NCBI GenBank assembly: GCA_016197225.1
Contig: JACPWC010000119.1
Coordinates: 1 to 64,000, forward strand
Reading direction: 5' to 3'
DNA: 64,000 nucleotides
Source: Chloroflexota bacterium
GTDB taxonomy: Bacteria; Chloroflexota; Anaerolineae; Anaerolineales; VGOW01
This document shows positions 39,303 to 44,322 of this stretch, piece by piece (positions within the stretch are counted from its first letter, which is position 1; the number at the start of each line of letters is the position of its first letter). The notes under the pieces were generated by a model, which worked only from the letters and a program-made list of their open reading frames with translations, did no database searches and was not told where the DNA came from. The position numbers were made by a program, and so were the translations under genes.

Positions 39303-40498
39303 GGTGTTTTCGTGTCAGCCAACTTCTGTTCCCAGTCGTCGCCAAACTTGACGAGGCGGGATTCGATTCCGAGCGCGCTCAACTCGTCGGCCAGGGCGCG
39401 GGCGGAGGGGCCGCTTGCTGGAAATGACTCGGGGTCGAGGAGGATGGCCAGCACTTCGAGGCCGCGATGGCGAAGGGCGACGAGGGACTCGACGACGGTT
39501 GAGTCGGGCCAGGGGAGGAGGACGGCGACGAAGGTTTGGGCGGCGCGGTTGTTAAGTACGTCAACTAATTTGTTTTCGCCAACGGGTTGAACACGGGCCA
39601 GATATTCAAGCAGGGCGATGCGAGTCACTGCGCCTGAGGGCGCGGGCCAGGCTGAAGAGTCAGTGGCCAGGTGAACGGGGTAATTTCGCCGCAGGGCGTA
39701 GTCGCCGATGCTGGCAACAATTTTGACAGCCCACTCGAACGGCGTGTGCTTGCTTTGAGTTTGCGGGTAAGGGTGGCGAAAAAGGTCGAGGGCGAGAGTC
39801 AGGCCGGGCTGGGTTTCGTCGGCGAATTCTTTGCTGGCAAGCTGGCCGGTGCGGGCGGCGGTACGCCAGTGAATGTGGCGGGGCGAGTCGCCACTGCGAA
39901 ACGGGCGCACGCCGATGATTTCGGTGCCAAGCCCGGCGCGGGGGTGAGAAAGCTGGGCGGCGGGCTGGCGGTCCAACAAACTGAGGCGGCGCAACCGGCG
40001 AACTTCGGGGTAGACCAGCACGCGAGTCGGCGCGAGCAGAGTCCGCTTGCGTTGGAAGAATCCGAACGGGGCGCGGGAGGCCAGCTTGAGCGCCGGAAAC
40101 TCATGCAGGCCACGACGATCTATTGTGACTTCGTAATCGAGTCGAACCGAGCCATTGGCTGGGAGCGAGGGAATGAAGAGTTGGAGAGGCATCGACTCGG
40201 CAGGCATGAGCGGGCAGTGCTCGGCGGCGTGGATGAGGGCGGCGTTGGCGCGGCCTGTGTTGCGGAGGGTGAGGCCGACGGTGACGGCGTCACCTTCGTA
40301 GAGCGAGATGCCATCTCGCTCTACAGTTCGGTCGGCGGAGATGAGGCGTAGAGCGCCGCGCCCCAGCCACCATGCGGCCAGCACTGTGCCGGCCAGCAGG
40401 GCCGACATGACGTACAGCCAGCCGACTTGAGTCTGGTTGGCGAAGAAGTAGAGGGCGAGGGCGGCGAGGAGGAAGGAGGCGGCGCGGGAGGTGGGCAT
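39242..40498 (-). CDS. DUF58 domain protein
   Basis: 418 residues from the ATG ending at 40498 (MPTSRAASFLLAALALYFF). Two N-terminal membrane helices are followed by a beta-rich region and the DUF58 core: RPFRSGDSPRHIHWRTAARTG, then a VWA-like fold. It works with MoxR ATPases in an uncharacterised chaperone or envelope system. Upstream in-frame ATGs (to 40684) lie in a tandem heptamer array. A palindrome encoding TVERDGISLYEGD is inside the gene (40299-40327), and the last residues (NFANERELPTTNSRQFA) are repeat-encoded. Confidence 0.87.
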   Translation of the reverse strand: MPTSRAASFLLAALALYFFANQTQVGWLYVMSALLAGTVLAAWWLGRGALRLISADRTVERDGISLYEGDAVTVGLTLRNTGRANAALIHAAEHCPLMPAESMPLQLFIPSLPANGSVRLDYEVTIDRRGLHEFPALKLASRAPFGFFQRKRTLLAPTRVLVYPEVRRLRRLSLLDRQPAAQLSHPRAGLGTEIIGVRPFRSGDSPRHIHWRTAARTGQLASKEFADETQPGLTLALDLFRHPYPQTQSKHTPFEWAVKIVASIGDYALRRNYPVHLATDSSAWPAPSGAVTRIALLEYLARVQPVGENKLVDVLNNRAAQTFVAVLLPWPDSTVVESLVALRHRGLEVLAILLDPESFPASGPSARALADELSALGIESRLVKFGDDWEQKLADTKTPAANFANERELPTTNSRQFA

Positions 40499-40690
40499 AA
40501 TAATGACAAATGATGAATGACAAATGATGAATGACACATGACAAATGATGAATGACAAATGACAAATGATGAATGACAAATGACAAATGACAAATGATGA
40601 ATGACAAATGACAAATGATGAATGACAAATGATGAATGACGAATGACGAATGACAAATGATGAATGACAAATGATGAATGACAAATGACG
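40499..40690. repeat. 190-base tandem heptamer array (ATGACAA/ATGATGA)
   Basis: About 27 consecutive heptamers in one direction, mostly ATGACAA or ATGATGA with few variants. It is not inverted, unlike most repeats here. On the minus strand no frame has a stop, so all three read as a seven-residue repeat (SFVICHS type). It separates MoxR from DUF58 and leaves no ribosome binding site for DUF58. Confidence 0.9.
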
Positions 40691-41856: not shown

Positions 41857-44322
41857 ATGGCTCAGTCACTTGAAGCGCTGTTGGATTCGCTGACGATGGA
41901 AGGCACGTTGTACGAGCGCTTGCCCGACAACGCAGTGCGATGTTACGCCTGCGGCCACCGTTGTCTGATCAAGGAAGGCCGGCGCGGCATCTGCCAGGTG
42001 CGCTTCAACGAAGGCGGGACACTCAAAGTGCCCTGGGGCTACGTGGGCGCTTTGCAGTGCGACCCGACCGAGAAGAAGCCCTTCTTCCACATTTATCCCG
42101 GCTCGGATACGTTGACGTTCGGGATGCTGGGATGTGATTTTCATTGCGCCTACTGTCTCTCGCCAAACACGCATATTGCAACTTCAGAAGGAACAAAGCC
42201 GATCGCGTCGCTGTTTGCCGAAGGCCGAACACTTCGACGAGCAGGCGACGAAGAAGTACGCCGCCCCACACGGGAAGTCGCCGTTTACACTCGCACCGGG
42301 CAGGCCCGCCGGGTCGAAAAACTTTTCCGCCATCCGTATCGCGGCCAGATGAAACGCATTCGGGCATGGTACCTGCCGCCGCTGGAATGTACACCTGAGC
42401 ACGAGCTTTTGGCAACGACTGCGCCCTCGGTTTCCCCGCAGTTCGTTCAGTCTGGCCGTCTTACCCCTGACCACCTTTTGGCTGTTCCGAAGCGTTTTGC
42501 ATTCTCTCATTCTGTCACTGTTAATACTGCCGAGTTGCTCAAGCCGCTGGTCAAGCCTTATCACGTCGAGCACACGATCAATCGCGAAACACTGGCCGAA
42601 GTCTTGCAACTATCAGCAGAAGGCTTGTCGTCGCGCGAGATTGGCGGGCGGATTGGGAAAGAGGCCTCTCACGTCCGGCATCTGCGGAGCAAGCTCAATC
42701 GCGGCGTTTGGGATTTGGAGCGGCTGGGCAAAGTGAACGCAGGGCTGACGGTTGAAGACGGGTATGTTCGTTTGCCGAAAGAGCACCGGCCCGGCATCCC
42801 GTTGGCGCTTGCGTTGGACACGCGGCTTGCCAAACTGCTCGGCTACTACTGCGCCGAAGGCTGTGTCGTTCGCTCGAAAGACAGAGTTCACTCGGCGGTG
42901 TTGAATTTCTCTTTCGGTCATCACGAAGAATCGCTAGCCGACGAAGTAATAGGGCTGTTGAACGACGTGTTCGGCGTGCAGGCTCAGAAGGTTTACCGCG
43001 AGACAACCGTTGGCGTTGCGGTGAGCAAAGCTTCTATCGCTTTGTGCTTTGAGTCGCTCTGCGGGCACGGGGCGCGAACGAAGCGCGTTCCGCCGCCCCT
43101 CTTTGAAGCGCATCGCGAAGTGGCCGATGCGTTTCTGCGGGCTTACGCTGAAGGCGACGGTAGCACTCGCGCCAACGGCCTGACTCAGATTCACACCGTC
43201 TCGGAGGAACTTGCTCACGGCGTTGCCTGGCTTGCCCTCAAGCTGGGAATGTTGCCCTCACTCTCCCGCCACCATTTGGGCGATCGCCCAATCCTGGGGC
43301 GGCAGGTGAAGGCTTCGCCGTACCAGTATGCCGTCAACTGGTATTTTGGCGAGCATCGCCGCAAGTTTGCCTTTGAAGACGACAACCACTGGTATGTTCG
43401 TATTCGGGGAATTGAGACTTTTGATTACGACGGCGATGTTTACAATCTTCAGGTTGAGGGCGAACATTCCTATCTTGCAAATTTGCTGGCAACTCACAAC
43501 TGCCAGAATTGGCAGACATCACAGACACTGCGAGATGATGTGGCTGGAGCGCCGCCGCAAATTGTGACGCCCCAGGAATTGGTGAACTATGGTTTGCGCG
43601 CCGGGGCAAAGCTGGTCGGGTCGTCGTATAACGAGCCGCTCATCACGTCTGAATGGGCGGTGGCGGTGTTCAAAGAGGCGGGCAAACACGGCCTCCAGTG
43701 CGTCTACATTTCAAACGGCAACGTCACGCGCGACGCTCTTGAGCACATTCGCCCGTACACGATTGGCTACAAGATCGATCTCAAGTCCATGTCGGATAAA
43801 CGCTACCGGCAGTTGGGCGGCGTTTTGCGGAACACGCTCGACGGCATCAAGCTGGCGAAGGAGATGGGCTTTTGGGTGGAAGTGGTGACTCTTGTCATCC
43901 CCGGCTTCAACGACAGCAACGAGGAGTTGATGGAGGCGGCTCAATATATCGAGTCGGTGTCCCCGGAGATTCCGTGGCACGTCACCGCCTTTCATCCTGA
44001 TTACAAGATGACGGAACCCGATCCGACTCGCGCTTCGACACTGATCCGCGCCGCCGAGATCGGGCAGGAGGCGGGCTTGCAGTTTGTGTATGCCGGCAAC
44101 CTGTCGGGGCAGGTGGGTGAGTATGAAAACACCTTTTGCCCGTCCTGCAACCACAAGCTAATTGCTCGCTACGGCTACGTTATTCTCGACTACCAGATCG
44201 CCGACGACGGTTGTTGCCCCAACTGCAAGGCGGCCATCCCCGGCATCTGGCCGAAACGCGCCGAAGTGCGGCTGGGGACGACGGGCGATTTGTATCGCCG
44301 CGTTCCGCGCCGAGTGCGATAG
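41857..44322 (+). CDS. AmmeMemoRadiSam-type radical SAM enzyme, interrupted by an intein
   Basis: 821 residues, of which 449 (42154-43500) are intein; the spliced protein would be 372. The extein has an N-terminal Cys-rich part (CYACGHRCLIKEGRRGICQVR), the radical SAM motif CDFHCAYC (C93, C97, C100 before splicing), the PflA-like core KLVGSSYNEPLI and IGYKIDLKSM, and a C-terminal zinc-ribbon (CPSCNHKLI, CCPNCKA). It matches the PflA-like enzyme of the AmmeMemoRadiSam system; partner genes are not seen here. After splicing, Cys43501 restores the third cluster cysteine, so the uncut protein should lack its [4Fe-4S] cluster. Confidence 0.9.
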   Translation: MAQSLEALLDSLTMEGTLYERLPDNAVRCYACGHRCLIKEGRRGICQVRFNEGGTLKVPWGYVGALQCDPTEKKPFFHIYPGSDTLTFGMLGCDFHCAYCLSPNTHIATSEGTKPIASLFAEGRTLRRAGDEEVRRPTREVAVYTRTGQARRVEKLFRHPYRGQMKRIRAWYLPPLECTPEHELLATTAPSVSPQFVQSGRLTPDHLLAVPKRFAFSHSVTVNTAELLKPLVKPYHVEHTINRETLAEVLQLSAEGLSSREIGGRIGKEASHVRHLRSKLNRGVWDLERLGKVNAGLTVEDGYVRLPKEHRPGIPLALALDTRLAKLLGYYCAEGCVVRSKDRVHSAVLNFSFGHHEESLADEVIGLLNDVFGVQAQKVYRETTVGVAVSKASIALCFESLCGHGARTKRVPPPLFEAHREVADAFLRAYAEGDGSTRANGLTQIHTVSEELAHGVAWLALKLGMLPSLSRHHLGDRPILGRQVKASPYQYAVNWYFGEHRRKFAFEDDNHWYVRIRGIETFDYDGDVYNLQVEGEHSYLANLLATHNCQNWQTSQTLRDDVAGAPPQIVTPQELVNYGLRAGAKLVGSSYNEPLITSEWAVAVFKEAGKHGLQCVYISNGNVTRDALEHIRPYTIGYKIDLKSMSDKRYRQLGGVLRNTLDGIKLAKEMGFWVEVVTLVIPGFNDSNEELMEAAQYIESVSPEIPWHVTAFHPDYKMTEPDPTRASTLIRAAEIGQEAGLQFVYAGNLSGQVGEYENTFCPSCNHKLIARYGYVILDYQIADDGCCPNCKAAIPGIWPKRAEVRLGTTGDLYRRVPRRVR
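42154..43500 (+). other. Intein with LAGLIDADG homing endonuclease
   Basis: 449 residues within the radical SAM gene. Block A begins at Cys1 with CLSPNTHIATSEG. The splice end is YLANLLATHN followed by Cys+1 (CQNW). Endonuclease motifs are LGYYCAEGCVV (block C) and LRAYAEGDGS (block E). A helix-turn-helix-like stretch (LSAEGLSSREIGGRIGKEASHV) lies before them, possibly for DNA binding. Both nucleophiles and the terminal His-Asn are present, so splicing should work. The frame continues cleanly through both junctions. Confidence 0.92.

Follow-up and report, generated by a model that had tools for sequence, protein, structure and literature searches.

An apparently intact class 1 intein before the third cluster cysteine codon of the radical SAM enzyme AmrS in a Chloroflexota bacterium, at a site where inteins recur

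Among the closest described systems to the element reported here is the intein in MoaA of Pyrococcus abyssi. According to the reviews PMC3922620 and PMC10663303, MoaA is an oxygen-labile enzyme, and a disulfide between the cysteine at position -3 (Cys-3) and the first residue of the intein (Cys1) blocks splicing until it is reduced. Whether inteins are no more than parasites or can at times act as regulators is an open question; this redox-gated intein is one of the few natural examples of a regulator.

We have analysed a window of 64,000 nucleotides, the whole stretch of DNA under study, from a Chloroflexota bacterium, and found an amrS gene that is interrupted within its cluster motif. All positions are those of the window, and all features of the gene lie on the plus strand. 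From the open reading frame and its domain matches, the precursor (41857-44322) has 821 residues and combines the host radical SAM enzyme with an intein. The N-extein of 99 residues (41857-42153) ends in GCDFHCAY, in which Cys-7 and Cys-3 provide ligands one and two of the cluster. The intein of 449 residues (42154-43500), delimited by motifs and profile matches, occupies residues 100-548 of the reading frame and ends in LLATHN. The C-extein of 273 residues (43501-44319) begins with C+1 in CQNW, and this cysteine would be the third cluster ligand once the protein is spliced. With a slash for the splice junction, the two borders read GCDFHCAY/CLSPNTHIATSEG and LLATHN/CQNWQTS. In the precursor, the motif CX3CX2C (CDFHCAYC, residues 93-100, 42133-42156) is completed by Cys1 of the intein, which is residue 100 of the reading frame. 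The sequence-only reading had given the intein exactly these limits, with its start at the third cysteine of the motif, and had expected C+1 to take that place after splicing; both points agree with our analysis. We consider it highly probable that the insert, placed directly before the codon of the third cluster cysteine, is a class 1 intein that is mobile and able to splice, and that its LAGLIDADG homing endonuclease is apparently intact.

The host was identified by a profile search, in which residues 1-99 and 549-821 matched TIGR04337, as two pieces abutting the intein, with a score of 261.5 bits (cut-off, 220). When the intein was excised in silico, a continuous AmrS of 372 residues with a restored CX3CX2C motif was obtained, in line with the earlier assignment of the host as the AmmeMemoRadiSam radical SAM enzyme. 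The source genome (4.8 Mb in 126 contigs, 98% complete) also carries the partners of this system, with one copy each of Memo (PF01875, on contig C117) and AMMECR1 (PF01871, on contig C46), and its amrS is a single copy, with no second amrS found in the genome. To our knowledge, the substrate of AmrS is unknown. Elsewhere in the window, short repeats at 40290-40684, near the start of a DUF58 reading frame, encode peptides resembling SFIICHSS or SFVIHHLS in all three minus-strand frames, and seem to be repetitive DNA, not a coding region.

The intein matched PF14890 (6e-11) and LAGLIDADG_3 (1.6e-11), and scored above the cut-offs of both TIGR01445 and TIGR01443. The residues expected for class 1 splicing are all present, namely C1, T80 and H83 of block B (TPEH, 42391-42402, with Cys79 just before it), H438, the penultimate H448, N449 and C+1; blocks F and G, DYDGDVYNLQVEGEHSYLANLLATHN, extend from 43423 to 43500. 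Both catalytic acids of the endonuclease are also present, E235 in motif 1 (LLGYYCAEGC, 42835-42864) and D335 in motif 2 (FLRAYAEGDGS, 43132-43164). Thus, what had been read from the sequence about the identity of the intein, its splicing residues and its two LAGLIDADG motifs holds. An AlphaFold2 model of the precursor, built with 27 homologues (mean pLDDT 85.8, pTM 0.57), resembles the intein endonucleases 2cw7 and 7qsu, and its extein part resembles the PFL-activating enzyme 3c8f. Values of pLDDT fall below 50 in the cluster loop (92-97) and where the C-extein begins (551-565), and accordingly the geometry of the junction is not predicted. Between the splicing and endonuclease parts, the model places three helices (intein residues 144-182, 42583-42699), for which HTH_23 gave a weak match below its cut-off (E=0.005). 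Judging from the model, this segment is probably the DNA-recognition part of the endonuclease.

Class 1 splicing is proposed because these residues are intact. During the reaction, Cys1 would attack the carbonyl of Tyr-1 in an N-to-S shift, the N-extein would pass to C+1, and Asn449 would cyclise with the aid of His448. Ligation would then give CDFHCAY-CQNW, in which CX3CX2C is rebuilt with C+1 as the third ligand. It is very unlikely that AmrS is fully active before splicing, because the remaining barrel lies past the insert of 449 residues. Across the family, the residue before the last Asn is Ser, Gly or Ala in most members, and splicing rates may differ among them on this account.

Comparison of the window genome with four congeneric genomes (G001-G004) showed that the amrS site is filled in three species of the genus and empty in two. 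At the identical codon, G001 carries an intein of 449 residues that is 71% identical to that of the window, and G002 one of 445 residues that is 42% identical, with Lys as the first endonuclease acid and Ser as the penultimate residue. The empty sites of G003 and G004 read CDLHCANCQNW and CDFHCAFCQNW, and over a shared extein stretch of 116 residues the filled G001 and the empty G003 are 91% identical. In each of the three filled members, the intein has a lower third-position GC than the extein. Since the same codon is filled in two congeners, empty in two others and filled in unrelated assemblies, chance or an assembly artefact is excluded as the origin of the insert.

The trees point to horizontal movement. 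The exteins of the window, G001 and G002 group together with a support of 99. Their inteins do not: the AU test rejects a tree that joins them (p=7.8e-5), and the inteins of the window and G001 are nearer to an intein from Omnitrophota. On the same lines, two Bipolaricaulota have closely similar exteins and inteins from different clades (AU p=5e-10). The codons that flank the insertion site are strongly conserved across AmrS and therefore offer a stable target to a homing endonuclease; the endonuclease may recognise these codons around the cluster motif and so drive horizontal homing. Every stage of an intein life cycle was seen in the family, from intact endonucleases through endonucleases with a lost acid and a mini-intein of 185 residues to the empty site. 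Degenerate endonucleases occur in L032, L046, L055 and G002, and where an acid is lost, the changes are E to K and D to G, A or N. No viral carrier of the AmrS-intein family was found, as scans of viral, phage and plasmid sequences gave only distant inteins in other hosts. Taken together, the empty sites in congeners, the discordant trees, the decayed endonucleases and the mini-inteins fit a mobile and largely selfish element.

The same site is occupied in many other organisms. We scanned one genome per species using the intein alone as the query, with patterns placed in the endonuclease region and none in the extein, and obtained 35 loci. Among the complete loci, all but two have the intein precisely at the third cysteine of CX3CX2C; the two exceptions (L060 and L061) are not at this site and were excluded from the same-site set. 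We gave no weight to the strict conservation of Cys233 and E235, since both residues are in the search pattern LLGYYCA[EK], which partly imposes the conservation of E235. In all, about 40 inteins lie at the third cysteine, in a set gathered by similarity to AmrS inteins in which other insertion positions are under-sampled. Read directly, they comprise 31 in AmrS, 4 in PflA-like proteins, 6 in Tes and 2 in B12-binding radical SAM proteins. No intein was seen at the first or second cluster cysteine among the loci examined, a sample biased towards relatives of the AmrS intein.

The AmrS hosts include several archaea and bacteria of at least seven phyla; by record title they include Chloroflexota, Acidobacteriota, Omnitrophota, Bipolaricaulota, Armatimonadetes, Falkowbacteria, Micrarchaeota, a euryarchaeote and Rokubacteria, the last with the C-terminal junction only. 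Among 400 sampled Chloroflexota genomes, 115 have AmrS above the cut-off, and AmrS is split by a same-site intein in six (G000, G092, G101, G156, G431 and G140), that of G140 being the 185-residue mini-intein, which is without an endonuclease. In four further genomes, those of archaeon HR02, Calditenuis, a member of the Thermoproteota and the Chloroflexota G243, this intein family interrupts a different radical SAM protein, which is PflA-like, at the same cysteine. In the three PflA-like-intein genomes checked (G434, G437 and G243), a separate AmrS gene is uninterrupted. One family has probably spread to this site both in AmrS, across many phyla, and in a PflA-like paralogue; more distant inteins occupy the same site in Tes and in the B12-binding enzyme. 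In Tes, the tetraether-lipid synthase, six loci (L110-L115) have the form NRCNFSCWY/C ... SN/CFF, and those of L113 and L114 are mini-inteins of 235 residues without an endonuclease. In the B12-binding protein, the form is GCPFCCDF/C ... HN/CWRP (L197, 790-3492, plus strand, and L198).

Inteins with a cysteine at -3 were also observed in two other redox proteins. Two archaeal thioredoxin reductases, with TIGR01292 above its cut-off, carry an intein inside the redox-active CATC as CAT/C1 ... VHN/C+1 DG (L170, 976-3087, minus strand; L188, 724-2832, plus strand). In a small archaeal ferredoxin (Fer4_15; L186, reverse strand, reading frame of 452 residues), the cluster motif is interrupted as CIG/C1 ... 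VHN/CAAC.

Because the insertion site is CXX/C, every such precursor has Cys-3 beside Cys1, here as CAY/C, the residue pair of the redox trap described for MoaA. It is conceivable that the intein is kept as a benefit to the host, with a Cys-3/Cys1 disulfide blocking the first splicing step under oxidation and reduction freeing an oxygen-sensitive enzyme. The pair is the same as that reported as disulfide-gated in the P. abyssi intein (PMC3922620 and PMC10663303). Also in keeping with a switch, Cys-3 is found in all same-site inteins, mini-inteins without an endonuclease persist at the site in both AmrS and Tes, and further CXX/C inteins occur in thioredoxin reductase and ferredoxin. Moreover, Cys-3 is missing from the three other inteins of the source genome (L022, L023 and L024, on contigs 80, 59 and 9), whose hosts, read from sequence, are RtcB, ribonucleotide reductase and GyrB. 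However, the host enzyme itself demands Cys-3, so that its conservation is uninformative about a switch, and mini-inteins can persist without any benefit. The presence of the intein is patchy, in three of five congeners and, among 121 Chloroflexota of the sample in which an AmrS could be recognised, in about 6, and the transfer and replacement seen in the trees are expected from a selfish element. A selfish element accounts just as well for such a scattered distribution with horizontal movement. Accordingly, we regard the redox-switch idea, which by analogy with MoaA is plausible and not new in principle, as unlikely to be an adaptation in AmrS, and we favour a mobile element as the default since presence is patchy and transfer is evident. 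Under the mobile-element reading, oxidation or a thiophilic metal could still slow splicing, possibly as a mere by-product of the chosen site.

A related idea is that the precursor motif binds a [4Fe-4S] cluster, iron or zinc, which would occupy Cys1 and restrain splicing. The sequence-only reading had held that the cluster cannot bind until the intein leaves, but this is not established, as Cys1 holds the third-ligand position and the precursor still reads CX3CX2C. With Cys-7, Cys-3 and Cys1 in exact cluster spacing, binding of a cluster or of zinc by the precursor is conceivable in principle, and zinc is reported to inhibit splicing of the mycobacterial DnaB intein reversibly (PMC7360933). 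On the other hand, the rest of the barrel is displaced in the precursor and the low pLDDT on both sides of the insert leaves the geometry without a prediction, and we consider gating by metal or cluster quite improbable. Slightly less probable still is a decaying intein that has lost splicing or only cleaves, with a non-functional AmrS in this organism: decay does occur in the family, as in the lost endonuclease acid of G002, in L039, where the N-terminal part is mostly gone, and in L045, which a change of frame splits, and many genomes of the order lack AmrS, but in the window every splicing residue and the extein are intact, no second amrS was found in the genome, and the inteins of the window and G001 share 71% protein over 67% DNA identity, as expected under purifying selection, although silent sites are saturated within the genus and dN/dS is not taken as proof.

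Relative to the searchable literature, the AmrS host, the recurrence of the site and the thioredoxin reductase and ferredoxin cases are new. The element itself belongs to an ordinary class, and it is the recurrent site that stands out. AmrS joins the list of intein hosts, and about 40 inteins at one cluster cysteine, spread over several bacterial and archaeal radical SAM enzymes, make the question of parasite or regulator directly testable. The single published example of MoaA becomes a testable series, which offers filled as well as empty alleles within a single genus, both full-length inteins and mini-inteins, and Cys-3 controls that are built in.

In comparison with known systems, the extein is a full AmmeMemoRadiSam radical SAM enzyme (TIGR04337) with Memo and AMMECR1 in the genome, but its gene is interrupted and the partner genes are on other contigs rather than adjacent. 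The class 1 LAGLIDADG inteins Tko Pol-2 (PI-PkoII, 2cw7) and Tli VMA (7qsu) share the splicing fold and the two-motif endonuclease, and differ in their hosts, their target sites and the DNA-contacting segment, which gives the weak HTH signal in the AmrS intein. The Tes inteins (NCBIfam NF045703) likewise sit at the third Cys of CX3CX2C, but they are in another host family, are only about 23-25% identical to AmrS inteins over the full length, and are followed by CFF, or in one case CFA, where AmrS has CQN. The intein of P. abyssi MoaA (Callahan et al. 2011, compared here as the reviews PMC3922620 and PMC10663303 describe it) shares a radical SAM host, Cys-3 with Cys1 as CXX/C, and a host that is rebuilt by loss of the intein; it differs in host enzyme and domain of life, and the oxidation trap is reported there. 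The CXX/C inteins of redox proteins, MoaA included, form a suggestive set, gathered by similarity to the AmrS intein and hence not unbiased. The CXX/C sites of AmrS, PflA-like, Tes and B12-binding radical SAM proteins, thioredoxin reductase, ferredoxin and MoaA might be a recurrent home for inteins because a built-in redox or metal brake holds back the assembly of oxygen-sensitive enzymes until conditions in the cell are reducing, a speculation to which we give only a small chance.
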